Positions 28,604 to 62,797 of a DNA stretch of 64,000 nt are shown one piece after another. A program made the translations under genes and the position numbers. Origin of the DNA: Bacillus sp. FSL K6-3431 (GTDB lineage Bacteria > Bacillota > Bacilli > Bacillales > Bacillaceae_C). A model generated the notes under the pieces. It did no database searches. It was not told the origin of the DNA and saw only the letters and a list, made by a program, of their open reading frames with translations. The stretch spans positions 3,286,001-3,350,000 of the forward strand of contig NZ_JBBOCT010000001.1 in assembly GCF_038002605.1 (NCBI RefSeq), given 5' to 3'. Positions within the stretch are counted from its first letter, which is position 1, and each line of letters starts with the position of its first letter.

Positions 28604-28685
28604 AAATATGAATTAAATCGATGTTTCACAAGTTTACCTTCTCATTTATCTGGTTTTGAAAGAATGAAAAGTTCTTTTCAATGAT

Positions 28686-28744
28686 CTTCTGTTAAGATCG
28701 CCACGTCATGTGGCAACACAGAAGTCAGCACATCCGTGTGCAAG

Positions 28745-28745
<1 letters not shown>
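28686..28745 (+). repeat. Structured repeat, copy D, in the 23S-5S spacer
   Basis: CTTCTGTT and AACACAGAAG flank an inner GCCAC-GTCAT-GTGGC hairpin (apex 28701-28713). GTCAGCACATCCGTGTGC follows, a second small hairpin that runs straight into the 5' end of 5S rRNA. The same two-hairpin arrangement recurs at 62643-62710. Confidence 0.7.
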
Positions 28746-28860
<115 letters not shown>

Positions 28861-29293: not shown

Positions 29294-29409
<116 letters not shown>

Positions 29410-43174: not shown

Positions 43175-43256
43175 TGTTAGGTTCCCGGTTTGTTCTTTTC
43201 GGACAATCTTTTCATACACTAGGTTGAAAGGATAATTCGATATGGGAGGGGTAAAC

Positions 43257-43520
43257 TTGGATCCGATGATAATTATATTGGCAATCTTTGGATTGATTGC
43301 TTTCTTGTTGGTAGTCGGGATGCCAGGTAAGGCATTGAAGTGGACTGGACAGGCTGTTATGAAAGTGATGATAGGTGCTATATTCCTATTTTTTTTAAAT
43401 GCCATCGGCAATCAATTTGGCATTTTTGTGCCAATTAATTTCGCCACTTCTGTTGTTTCTGGTTTTTTAGGATTGCCGGGCGTTGCCGCTTTAACTGTAA
43501 TACAATTATGGATCATTTAA
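43257..43520 (+). CDS. bofA: Pro-sigmaK processing inhibitor BofA
   Basis: Integral membrane protein that, with SpoIVFA, holds the SpoIVFB protease inactive until the forespore signal arrives, so it times SigK activation. The 87-residue product (same length as B. subtilis BofA) has two membrane spans and the conserved block NQFGIFVPINFATSVVSGFL. I chose TTG at 43257 because GGGAGGGG lies 5 nt upstream and the resulting length matches. Strong terminator after it. Confidence 0.95.
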   Translation: MDPMIIILAIFGLIAFLLVVGMPGKALKWTGQAVMKVMIGAIFLFFLNAIGNQFGIFVPINFATSVVSGFLGLPGVAALTVIQLWII

Positions 43521-43521
43521 T

Positions 43522-43560
43522 AAACATCCGCTAATAACCTGGCGGATGTTTTTATTTTTT
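43522..43560 (+). terminator. Terminator after bofA
   Basis: ACATCCGC (43524-43531) and GCGGATGT (43542-43549) followed by TTTTATTTTTT. Confidence 0.92.
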
Positions 43561-43787
43561 GTGTACGGGGGCAGCGCCCGCTCCCCTTTATGCTATTCAT
43601 GGGTAAAGGGCCAAGAACATAGGACCTAGCGCTGAATAAGGGGCTTGTGCTTTTCTTACGGAATAAAAAATAGTTAACAGATTAATGGTATGATAGGGAG
43701 GAAAATATTGGGTGTATAGGTTTTATTATCTATTTGCATTATATAAAATAGGATATTAAAAACTATCATAATTAAAGGGTGGTCAAA

Positions 43788-45131
43788 ATGGATTTAAAGC
43801 ATGAAACATTTGATGTAAGCGTTCTCGGTGGAGGGCCAGCAGGGATCACAGCGGCCCTTAGCGCAGCAAGAAGTGGCGCGAAAACAATATTGATAGAAAA
43901 GTATGGATTTTTAGGAGGAATGTCAACCGCTGCAATGGTATATCCATGGATGACGTTTCATACTGCTACAGGAAAACAAGTAATTCGTGGAATTGCTCAA
44001 GAAATAGTAGATAAACTAATGAGTCTGGATGCTTCACCGGGCCATTTACGAGATACTATCGGATTTGTTCATACATTAACACCTTACAATCCAGAAGTGT
44101 ATAAAATGGTGGCTTTTGATTTATTAGAAGAAGCCGGAGTGAAGCTGCTCATGCATTCTATGGTCACTGAGGTAAACATGTCTGATCAGCAAATTGCTAG
44201 TGTATCTGTATATAATAAAAGTGGAAAAGTAAATATTAAATCAAAAGTTTTTGTTGATGCAACTGGAGATGGAGATGTAGCTTATCTTGCTGGAGCTCCG
44301 TGGGAAAAAGGAAATAAGGATGAAAAGGTTCAGCCGATGACGATGAAATTTAGAATGAAAGGTGTAAAGCTGGACGAAGTAAAGAAATATATGCAGGAAA
44401 ACCCGGATGAATTTTATGAAAAGTCATTAGTTAGTGAACTAGATAAATTACCATTAACCGGGGTTATGGGTTTTTATCGTCAATGGGATGAAGCGAATTT
44501 ACCGATTGCTCGAGATGGTATTTTATTTTTTGCGGGTCCAGGGGATGATGAAGCATTAATCAATGTATCCCGTGTGTCAGGTCTAGATCCAACGAATACT
44601 GAAGACTTAACAGCAGCTGAAATTGAAGGACGAAGACAAGTATATATGCTAGAAAAGTTTTTTCGACAATATATACCTGGTTTTTCAGAGGCCACAGTAG
44701 TTTCTACTGGAACTCAAATAGGTGTGAGGGAAGCACGAAGAATTATAGGGGAATATGTTCTAAATGGTGAAGACGTGTTGAATGGAACGAGATTTGCCGA
44801 TGTGATTGCTAGAAGCGGTTACCCGATCGATATTCATAATCCAGAAGGGAAAGGCGTGACAGCTAATTTTATTAAGGAAGGTGGCGCATATGACATACCA
44901 TATCGATCCATCGTCCCTAAAAGTGTCAATAATTTATTGTTAGCAGGACGCTGCATTTCTACTACACACGAAGCACAAGCAACGACACGTTTAACACCAA
45001 GCTGTATGGCAATTGGACAAGCGGCAGGAGCGGCGGCCGCAATCGCAGCCAAAGAAAATTGTGCAGCCAGAGATGTAAATATATCTTCACTACAAAATGA
45101 ACTAATAAAGGGAAATGCTGATCTAGGGTAA
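43788..45131 (+). CDS. FAD-dependent oxidoreductase (FAD_oxidored, PF12831-like)
   Basis: 447-residue flavoprotein. N-terminal Rossmann motif GGGPAG at 14-19, followed by EKYGFLGGMSTAAMV, the FAD pattern of the FAD_oxidored family. DATGDGDVAYLAG in the middle and the C-terminal FAD-closing segment NNLLLAGRCISTTHEA...AIGQAAGAAAA complete it. No signal peptide, so cytoplasmic. Substrate unknown; relatives often sit beside carbohydrate-active enzymes, as here. I chose ATG at 43788 behind AAAGGGTGG. It and the next gene occupy the place of the rrnA operon of B. subtilis, so the pair is probably acquired. Confidence 0.88.
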   Translation: MDLKHETFDVSVLGGGPAGITAALSAARSGAKTILIEKYGFLGGMSTAAMVYPWMTFHTATGKQVIRGIAQEIVDKLMSLDASPGHLRDTIGFVHTLTPYNPEVYKMVAFDLLEEAGVKLLMHSMVTEVNMSDQQIASVSVYNKSGKVNIKSKVFVDATGDGDVAYLAGAPWEKGNKDEKVQPMTMKFRMKGVKLDEVKKYMQENPDEFYEKSLVSELDKLPLTGVMGFYRQWDEANLPIARDGILFFAGPGDDEALINVSRVSGLDPTNTEDLTAAEIEGRRQVYMLEKFFRQYIPGFSEATVVSTGTQIGVREARRIIGEYVLNGEDVLNGTRFADVIARSGYPIDIHNPEGKGVTANFIKEGGAYDIPYRSIVPKSVNNLLLAGRCISTTHEAQATTRLTPSCMAIGQAAGAAAAIAAKENCAARDVNISSLQNELIKGNADLG

Positions 45132-45253
45132 TAAGAAAAGTGAAAGCGTCTTGCTCATCGACGTATAGACAGCAATGTTTCGGACGGAATAAATAAAAGG
45201 TGAGCATCCTCAAAAAAACATATTAGACCAGATTAGTAGGAGGAAATAGAAAC

Positions 45254-46879
45254 ATGCAATCAATTATTAAACTAGAGGATCACCCTGTCATTTTGTTTGC
45301 TTGTGAGGAGCTAGTCGCTGCCTCTATGCGAGCTGGTTTACAATGGAAGGTCATAGAAGCAAATAAGCAAATCGATGATAAGTCAGTCATTGTTGGAACT
45401 TGGGCAACTTTAAAGAGCAAGGGATGGTTCCCATCTACATTAAAATTTGGTGTTGACCATTACCTTTTTGGTGAAAGTGATGGTCATATATGGATATCAG
45501 GTCAAAGTGAACGGGCTACTCTATATGCCGTATACCATTTTTGTAAAGTATACTGGGGAGAGCAGTGGATTTATCCAGCAGAACTTACACTATCTGAACC
45601 GACCAACACATCATTACATATTGTCAGTTATGAACCCGCTTTTATCCGTAGGGGTTTTGTATTTGAGACGATTAATGAGCCAGACTACATTATCTCGATG
45701 ATTGATTGGCTTGTAAAAAATCGGATCAATGAAGTATTTTTTACTTTTACTTTATGGGATGAATTGAAGGATAGGATTGCTCCTGAAATTAGTAAACGTG
45801 GATTAAGTGTGACATTGGGTGGTCACAGTATGAAGTTTTTCTTGGACAAGGAAACAGCGTTGAATCAATCGGTAGCTAACCATCCATATACAGCTATAAA
45901 ACAGCTCAATTATCAAGATAAGGTATGGCAAGAAAAGATATATGAAGAGATTGTAGCATATTGCCAGGATGTCCCAAACTTAACAAGAATCTCTTTATGG
46001 CCTGAAGATGTAGCGATAGAACCGGACTCTGAGCAAACCAATAGTTTTTTAAAGTCATATATCGAATACACAGAAGGTTTAAAAGCTACCCTCATACGTA
46101 AAGGAATAGATATAACTGTGGAACATATTGCTTATAATGCTGGTTTATCATGGATGATGCTTGAACGAGACGGGATGGAGATCTCACAGGAAGTAGATTC
46201 ACTATTCGCATACTGGGGTCGTGATTATCGATATTCCTTTTTGGAATCACCCCAAAAAAGTGATCAGAGAGCATGTATATCATTGAAGGATTGGATCAAA
46301 GGGACAAAGAAAAGTAATCGAGAACTGACTATATTTGAATATTATAGTGATCAATTTATGTTGACACCGTTATTTCCCTTATTATCTCAACGCATCACGG
46401 CAGACTTGAAAGAATATAATCAATTAGGGATTGAGGGAATCACAAACTTGATAGTTCCAGTTCGAACAATTGAAAATCATCCATGGCATTGGATTCACCA
46501 ATTTAACAGCTATGTTTTTTGTCGAGCGTGTTGGGGTGACCAGCTAGAGGATATTTTAGAAGATTATTATTTATATTTTCAAGATAAAGAGCGAGCGTGG
46601 ATTAGGTGTGCATTTGAACTAGTCGAAGAAATTTTACCGGCAATAACAACGTGGAATACGCTACTTTTCCCAGCTAGAATAGTTGATCCAGAAATGGCGA
46701 AGGGTAATAAAAAGCAAAGTCTAGATGCATATGCATTATTGGAGGAAATTAGTAAGAATATGCAGAGGCTTTTGCAACAATCACCCTTATCAGAAGATAA
46801 TATGGCTAATAAATATATTGAACATCTGGCTAATTATTCTCATGAAATGGCTAAGCAATGGAATGATAAAAAAGAATGA
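45254..46879 (+). CDS. Alpha-glucuronidase-like/DUF4838-like putative glycoside hydrolase
   Basis: 541 residues. The N-terminal part, with GQSERATLYAVYHFCKVYWG, resembles the small domain that precedes the barrel in GH67/GH20-type enzymes. The middle resembles a TIM barrel and ends in a DUF4838-like stretch: YWGRDYRYSFLESP, ELTIFEYYSDQF, EYNQLGIEGITNLI. I see no secretion signal. I cannot name the catalytic acids; candidates are W-P-E-D near residue 250 and the E of FEYY. GGAGGAAA precedes the ATG. It follows the FAD oxidoreductase by 122 bp without a terminator, so probably one operon acting on a sugar derivative. Confidence 0.7.
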   Translation: MQSIIKLEDHPVILFACEELVAASMRAGLQWKVIEANKQIDDKSVIVGTWATLKSKGWFPSTLKFGVDHYLFGESDGHIWISGQSERATLYAVYHFCKVYWGEQWIYPAELTLSEPTNTSLHIVSYEPAFIRRGFVFETINEPDYIISMIDWLVKNRINEVFFTFTLWDELKDRIAPEISKRGLSVTLGGHSMKFFLDKETALNQSVANHPYTAIKQLNYQDKVWQEKIYEEIVAYCQDVPNLTRISLWPEDVAIEPDSEQTNSFLKSYIEYTEGLKATLIRKGIDITVEHIAYNAGLSWMMLERDGMEISQEVDSLFAYWGRDYRYSFLESPQKSDQRACISLKDWIKGTKKSNRELTIFEYYSDQFMLTPLFPLLSQRITADLKEYNQLGIEGITNLIVPVRTIENHPWHWIHQFNSYVFCRACWGDQLEDILEDYYLYFQDKERAWIRCAFELVEEILPAITTWNTLLFPARIVDPEMAKGNKKQSLDAYALLEEISKNMQRLLQQSPLSEDNMANKYIEHLANYSHEMAKQWNDKKE

Positions 46880-46975
46880 GGTTCCCTATGAATTTAATTT
46901 TACAGACAAACACGGCTAAGGTTTTGTTGGCATATGATGAATGTAAACGAATATTTAGGTAATTTTAGCAATTGT

Positions 46976-47024: not shown

Positions 47025-47198
47025 ATGGAGAAATGCATCGTTTGCGATGAAGCGCAAAAGCATGGTATTCATCTTTATACATCTTTTATCTGTACAGATT
47101 GCGAGAAAGCTATGATTAATACGGATCCAACCGATCCAACATACAAGTATTTTATCAATCAACTAAAAGTAGTTACAGAATCGAAAATCATGTCTTGA
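47025..47198 (+). CDS. csfB: Anti-sigma factor CsfB (Gin)
   Basis: Small zinc protein that blocks SigG (and SigE) so that forespore sigma factors switch in order. The 57 residues carry two CxxC pairs, CIVC near the N-terminus and CTDC further on, with GIHLYTSFIC between them as in B. subtilis Gin. I chose ATG at 47025, behind GGGGGTGGA; the frame runs six codons upstream. Own forespore-type promoter and terminator. In B. subtilis xpaC and yaaN follow; they are absent here. Confidence 0.94.
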   Translation: MEKCIVCDEAQKHGIHLYTSFICTDCEKAMINTDPTDPTYKYFINQLKVVTESKIMS

Positions 47199-62587: not shown

Positions 62588-62797
62588 ATGTTCAAAAAGT
62601 CACCAAATGATAAACGGCGAATTTCTTCGTGCTATAGGTACGTACTTCTACTAAAAGCGCCCACGTCCTGTGGGTAACGTAGAAGTCAGCACATCCTGTG
62701 CAAGTCCGGTTCTCACGTATTAAAAGCATACGCTCTGATCCTCAAAACCTTCTCGCCTCGAACTTCTTGTTTCTAATTTGGCATCATTTTGAACACG
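62588..62797. mobile_element. MITE-like element with imperfect terminal inverted repeats
   Basis: The left end TGTTCAAAAAGT...CCAAATGATAAAC (from 62589) is mirrored by the right end, whose reverse strand reads GTGTTCAAAATGA...CCAAATTAGAAAC (to 62796). About 210 bp, no coding capacity. It resembles non-autonomous repeats common in Bacillus genomes with TTGTTCAAAAAG ends. A two-hairpin structured repeat (copy E) is nested inside. Confidence 0.65.
62643..62710 (+). repeat. Structured repeat, copy E, nested in the MITE-like element
   Basis: CTTCTAC and GTAGAAG flank CCCAC-GTCCT-GTGGG (apex near 62660-62674), followed by TCAGCACATCCTGTGCAAG, a second small hairpin. Same layout as copy D in the 23S-5S spacer. 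Confidence 0.75.

Follow-up and report, generated by a model that had tools for sequence, protein, structure and literature searches.

In loci for sugar uptake and degradation, genes of a small family of Bacillales proteins with a GH20/GH84/GH67/GH115-type glycosidase fold recurrently stand near that of a PF12831 flavoenzyme, and one such pair lies between bofA and csfB/gin in Bacillus sp. FSL K6-3431, within a stretch of 64,000 nucleotides that is called the window throughout. The association is real and conserved, i.e. not the curiosity of one strain. Since the pair recurs in soil-bacterial clusters for the uptake and digestion of complex sugars, both proteins probably work in one sugar-breakdown route as yet not worked out, and we consider it fairly likely that, as enzymes of the cytoplasm, they form the core of a route for glycan catabolism. 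The glycosidase-fold family (hereafter GH) is small and well bounded; no tested member was found, and it is a candidate for a new carbohydrate-active enzyme family that has, in the flavoenzyme, an obvious partner for assays. Its pairing with flavoenzymes of three separate lineages offers a testable case of redox chemistry within glycan catabolism.

Table 1. Features in and around the bofA–csfB/gin interval (positions in the window)
Feature	Position	Strand	Evidence
bofA, left flank	43242..43520	+	TIGR02862, 86.8 bits, above its cut-off; PF07441
Terminator-like stem-loop 3' of bofA	43522..43551	+	Pattern scan: 12 pairs, T run; aligned in L067 too
DNA absent from the nearest relative, L067, except for a 61-bp piece	43561..46896	.	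Alignment ends at 43560 and restarts at 46897
PF12831 flavoenzyme, 447 aa, c14 type	43788..45131	+	PF12831, 442 bits; model pLDDT 83.6
Dispersed intergenic repeat separating the flavoenzyme and GH genes	45134..45165	+	Also in L069, L071, L072 and L073
GH67N-containing glycosidase-fold protein, 541 aa	45254..46879	+	PF03648 match; AlphaFold2 model
GH67N domain, residues 2-96	45257..45541	+	PF03648
Invariant W249-P250-E251-D252 motif closing barrel strand 4, with the proposed catalytic acids	45998..46009	+	65/65 alignment rows; model; catalysis inferred
csfB/gin, right flank	47028..47198	+	PF10764, 74.7 bits

The bofA–gin interval and its history

The interval holds two intact plus-strand genes, the flavoenzyme followed by the GH protein (Table 1), in agreement with the two-gene unit originally predicted between these flanks. 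For the flavoenzyme, ATG 43788 is the probable start, favoured by the AAAGGGTGG stretch at 43774-43782 over GTG 43779, from which a longer call begins, and the GH start at 45254 is preceded by AGGAGG. By eye, no signal peptide is visible at either N-terminus, as the original prediction had it. The intergenic repeat is present as one copy in the window, and the same 30–32 bp are found 3' of bofA in L069, L071, L072 and L073 (E values from 9e-7 to 2e-9). Because the flavoenzyme and GH ORFs overlap in eight other loci as called, i.e. with the longest start for each gene, which may exaggerate overlaps, the repeat may have pushed the two genes apart here. A promoter scan gave no signal (18 found, compared with 13.8 +/- 4.2 in shuffled sequences). 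Elsewhere in the window, two 5S rRNA genes (28745-28860 and 29294-29409) follow one 16S–23S operon, and there are three Bacillaceae-1 RNAs (2307-2373, 28676-28742 and 62635-62702), one of them between the 23S and the first 5S gene.

In B. subtilis, bofA and csfB presumably flank rrnA. A bofA match was found in 15 of 16 genomes of the genus; among the 14 besides that of the window, gin lies less than 1.5 kb from bofA without the pair in 11, and is absent from the stretch examined in the remaining three. ARAGORN placed a tRNA-Ile gene 3' of bofA in six of these 14 genomes, accompanied by tRNA-Ala in four of the six, while in a fifth, L068, a tRNA-Ala gene can be seen by eye to begin at the edge of the stretch; one further genome has a 62-bp piece of 16S rRNA 3' of bofA at a contig edge. 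The spot thus behaves like the rrnA spot, and to this extent the claim that the pair sits in the place of rrnA stood, but the pair does not literally replace an operon common to all relatives. A replacement of rrnA for a functional reason was rejected, considering the 11 of 14 genomes with gin near bofA and no pair, and the nearest relative, L067, with only a 61-bp piece.

Among the loci with tRNA-Ile 3' of bofA (L068-L073), L069-L072 leave no space for an rRNA operon ahead of gin, and their site looks like a collapsed rrnA. In L068 and L073, an aldo/keto-reductase-like gene was also noticed by eye 3' of bofA.

The 61-bp piece of L067 (BofA 84 %), at L067:1843-1903, is an 80 % identical remnant of the GH gene and scores 53.6 bits, whereas none of 200 shuffles exceeded 29.2. 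Since this decayed fragment sits at the same site, the common ancestor probably carried a GH gene between bofA and gin that L067 has since lost, and the whole pair was probably lost there.

The flavoenzyme

The flavoenzyme is a full-length member of PF12831 (442.4 bits against a cut-off of 27, residues 9-439 covering profile positions 1-416 of 416), in line with the FAD_oxidored-type enzyme expected from the original prediction. Its model (pLDDT 83.6) resembles the folds of 3oz2, the FixC-type chain 7koe_C and flavocytochrome c3. At least 7813 of the 7999 candidates scored were matched as homologues, and the c14 genes lying upstream of GH in eight other loci encode proteins 67–75 % identical to it.

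The glycosidase-fold protein

An alpha-glucuronidase-like N-terminal domain was likewise confirmed in the 541-aa protein, its match to GH67N (PF03648, residues 2-96) lying barely above the cut-off (24.6 against 24.3 bits). No other GH67 Pfam domain was found in the window protein at E<=10, and the match of profile A1 to the solved GH67 structure 1k9d (E 0.079) was confined to positions 4-101, in the N-terminal part. The predicted DUF4838-like C-terminal half was not borne out: PF16126 was unreported for the window protein by Pfam at E<=10, the relationship being weak and distant, with matches in only five of 65 relatives. Among these 65 aligned relatives, domain matches at E<=0.01 comprised GH67N in 36, NAGLU_N in seven and DUF4838 in five. 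True membership of GH67 or GH163 by sequence was therefore rejected, there being no GH67 match beyond the N-terminal domain and no PF16126 match.

The AlphaFold2 model of the protein is a confident one (pLDDT 92) and appears to show a whole GH20/GH84/GH67/GH115-type glycosidase fold, with GH67, GH115, GH84 and GH20C tied as best folds and with 6–12 % identity in the GH84 and GH20C comparisons. The W249-P250-E251-D252 motif, preceded in the model by strand 243-248, is invariant in all 65 alignment rows, and we propose E251 and D252 as the putative catalytic acids. The window protein keeps the residues invariant across the alignment, including the full set of acids. When compared by hhalign, the GH family and the neighbouring GH20C family gave a probability of 0.3.

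The single sequence retrieved 244 relatives at E<=0.001 from about 5.8 billion proteins, and a profile search retrieved 245 at E<=1e-5, so the GH family is small and closed. Among the best 120 relatives, all genus-named members belong to the Bacillales (Paenibacillus, Cohnella, Marinicrinis, Psychrobacillus, Sporosarcina, Paenisporosarcina and Falsibacillus). Near the window strain the gene is rare, being present in four of 100 related genomes including its own. A scan of reference genomes with the window protein alone gave 12 pattern matches, none of them confirmed; with the alignment, the scan yielded 61 loci.

Linkage of the flavoenzyme and GH genes

Linkage was counted in 61 loci, i.e. 60 of the 61 scanned loci (L064 was dropped, its GH gene not being found whole) plus the window; near-copies were kept, and L001-L004, the first of which repeats the window, were left out. 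A same-strand PF12831 gene directly adjoins GH in 30 of the 61 loci and lies within two genes in 48 and within three genes in 49; extending the range to six genes still gives 49, or 50 if L064 is counted. As the window genome has four full-length PF12831 genes in 5.5 Mb, chance adjacency should by our own estimate be well under 1 % per locus.

The partners belong to three types. The c14 type lies directly upstream of GH in nine loci, among them the window, and at a greater distance on the same side in two (Paenibacillus, Cohnella); the c6 type is found directly downstream in 21 loci (Psychrobacillus, Sporosarcina, Rossellomorea, Solibacillus and others); and the c4 type is located two genes upstream in 17 loci, the gene between being c7 (617 aa) or, in L036, an esterase gene. 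In the midpoint-rooted PF12831 tree, the three types fall on three deeply separate branches. When the four partner labels are placed on the GH tree, which is likewise midpoint-rooted and, like the former, has long branches, they require nine changes, compared with a mean of 32.9 for shuffled labels, and none of 200 shuffles was as low. Both window proteins group with Paenibacillaceae homologues. Chance neighbourhood is rejected on two grounds, the linkage counts and the way in which partner labels cluster along the GH tree.

Twelve of the 61 loci lack a PF12831 gene within three genes, which we count against a common route. In six of these 12 genomes, a c14-grade gene (>=779 bits) is present elsewhere, and in six there is none; three of the six genes encode proteins 69–78 % identical to GH-linked c14 proteins and three are 61–62 % identical to that of the window, one of the latter lying beside ABC permeases that resemble those next to the DUF4127-type paralogue described below. 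In Paenibacillus abyssi, the c14 flavoenzyme gene is located about 13 kb downstream of GH in the same run. The c14-type flavoenzyme is also used without GH, since the paralogue in the window genome has no GH alongside.

Sugar-catabolic neighbourhood

The survey for co-occurrence that had been suggested with the original prediction found the two families together far beyond chance, and in sugar-catabolic loci; by homology, neither gene was assigned to a characterised unrelated pathway. Neighbour families were named from one cluster representative each (Pfam, NCBIfam). Recurring neighbours comprise ABC permeases, solute-binding proteins and LacI regulators; enzymes such as Gfo/Idh/MocA (often two per locus), Zn-ADH, epimerase, DHDPS-like and AP_endonuc_2 proteins; and AXE1 and GDSL esterases, GH1, GH20C, NagA, NanE and ROK proteins. 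Given the NagA match (326.8 against a curated cut-off of 225.65) and that of the GH20C cluster to the solved pneumococcal enzyme (464 bits), most c4-type loci would handle N-acetylhexosamine.

A same-strand run in P. abyssi comprises LacI, GH, a PHP protein, ABC permeases, a solute-binding-like protein, a 1918-aa SLH/CBM protein, a heparinase II/III lyase with CBM96, the c14 flavoenzyme and GH88, and judging from these gene families it is probably a uronate-polysaccharide locus. Jointly, the two contexts would fit a polymer of uronate and N-acetylhexosamine; the two gene sets were not seen together in one locus among the annotated loci. An inositol substrate has only weak hints in its favour, the IolG-, IolE- and inosose-dehydrogenase-like matches among neighbours in other species scoring well below curated cut-offs.

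The 617-aa c7 protein is encoded beside GH and the flavoenzyme in 19 loci (L047:7955-9808 and 18 others). Its representative shows no clear family in Pfam or NCBIfam, one member touching Pec_lyase (22.2 against a cut-off of 22), and in a PDB profile search it best matched, along a short segment, a leucine-rich-repeat chain (E 0.0013), followed by a mannan endo-1,6-alpha-mannosidase (E 0.16). Very large SLH/CBM_4_9 proteins (c8) are encoded in 18 GH loci, e.g. L113:5412-11168 and L007:11826-16397.

Related genes elsewhere in the genome

No transporter or regulator gene adjoins the pair, so the statement that no transporter is adjacent holds for the window; it does not extend to the homologous loci, many of which have ABC permeases, nor to a second locus of the same genome, where ABC, ADH and flavoenzyme genes cluster. 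This locus (L090:3505-11129, genome C1 ~90,500-98,130) encodes an ABC importer, a GntR-SBP regulator, a Zn-ADH and a c4-type flavoenzyme, with identities to homologous loci of 49 % for the binding protein, 71 and 65 % for the permeases, 61 % for the Zn-ADH and 69 % for the flavoenzyme, and it offers the best candidate for the missing transporter. At L089:10827-13868 (genome C1 ~3,896,800-3,899,900), two ABC permease genes are followed by a c14 paralogue (58 %) and a DUF4127 gene (PF13552, 458 bits), with no GH beside the paralogue; this is another unexplained flavoenzyme association.

A close LacI homologue was not found in the genome, the best reaching 32 %. Neither c7 nor PF18088 GH20C was matched there, in searches whose positive controls also gave no signal, and the best NagA homologue reaches only 38 %; we count the c7, PF18088 and NagA results, too, against the glycan-catabolic reading. 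A further NagA-like match at genome C1 3679804-3680474 (L111, L112) is split in two, a stop lying between the pieces or within them, and is perhaps a broken second copy.

Proposed role and alternatives

In the glycan-catabolic route that we favour, an ABC transporter, in the window strain perhaps that of L090, would import an often acetylated oligosaccharide that includes N-acetylhexosamine, uronic acid or both. The 541-aa protein would cleave it by means of E251-D252 at barrel strand 4, helped by further acids at strands 1 and 7; the flavoenzyme would alter, by oxidation or reduction, the redox state of the freed sugar or of the remaining saccharide, and dehydrogenases and kinases would then feed the converted sugar into central metabolism.

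It might be argued instead that GH acts like the GH67/GH115 enzymes, as an alpha- or beta-uronidase, and that its released uronic acid products are then oxidised or reduced by the flavoenzyme, as the GH67N domain, the presence of GH67 and GH115 among the tied folds, and the heparinase II/III and GH88 genes of the P. abyssi locus would suggest. However, the GH84 and GH20C folds match equally well, the c4-type loci have NagA, GH20C, NanE and ROK instead, and the resemblance to the solved GH67 enzyme ends with the N-terminal part, so we regard such a uronidase as unlikely. Somewhat more doubtful still is an order of events in which the flavoenzyme would act before cleavage, oxidising a hydroxyl of the intact oligosaccharide, e.g. 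to a 3-keto sugar, with the GH-fold protein or a partner cleaving only the oxidised glycoside, in the sense of the oxidative cleavage that the original prediction had put forward. Gfo/Idh/MocA and AP_endonuc_2 enzymes serve in NAD-dependent keto-sugar routes, and genes for both (c1 and c24) occur in other loci of the GH family; in NCBIfam, one Gfo/Idh/MocA protein best matches a UDP-GlcNAc 3-dehydrogenase model, scoring 200.7 bits where the cut-off is 450. The close linkage of the two genes also speaks for this order. It is tempting to speculate on a flavin counterpart of these routes, in which a PF12831 flavoenzyme would oxidise a sugar of an imported N-acetylhexosamine/uronate oligosaccharide and a new GH family, paired in evolution with three different flavoenzyme lineages, would act on nothing but the oxidised form, an idea to which we give the same low credence. 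Nevertheless, GH has its own full set of invariant acids and may need no oxidation, and in the window the pair has no Gfo/Idh/MocA or AP_endonuc_2 gene next to it.

The sparse distribution of GH in related genomes, the grouping of both proteins with Paenibacillaceae homologues, the mere remnant in L067 and the lack of an adjoining transporter or regulator or of a LacI homologue better than 32 % would also be expected of a stray pair that was acquired but serves no working pathway in the window strain. Against this stand two intact ORFs with good ribosome-binding sites, the alignment-invariant residues of the window protein and the related transport locus in the genome, and this explanation appears the least probable of those considered.

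Comparison with known systems

None of the titles and abstract openings surveyed, largely from outside the subscription journals, mentions the flavoenzyme–GH pair. From the GH67 and GH115 alpha-glucuronidases, the window protein differs in its length of 541 aa, in GH67N as its sole GH67 Pfam domain at E<=10 and in its flavoenzyme partner, while GH84 O-GlcNAcases and GH20C beta-N-acetylhexosaminidases share only 6–12 % identity with it, the acid pair here being Glu-Asp. A DUF4838 protein is tabulated as GH163 in PMC9870897, and PMC10154615 describes a Bacteroides GH163 enzyme that removes LacNAc antennae at GlcNAc-beta-1,2-Man; likeness to this group is limited to the five of 65 family members matching PF16126 at E<=0.01, among which the window protein does not count. 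The window flavoenzyme matches PF12831 FAD_oxidored flavoproteins over its full length and differs from them by its linkage to the GH family. With the ABC-type oligosaccharide loci of Bacillales, the GH-family loci share an importer, a LacI-type regulator, glycosidases, a kinase and NagA, to which they add the recurrent flavoenzyme–GH core and the 617-aa c7 protein.
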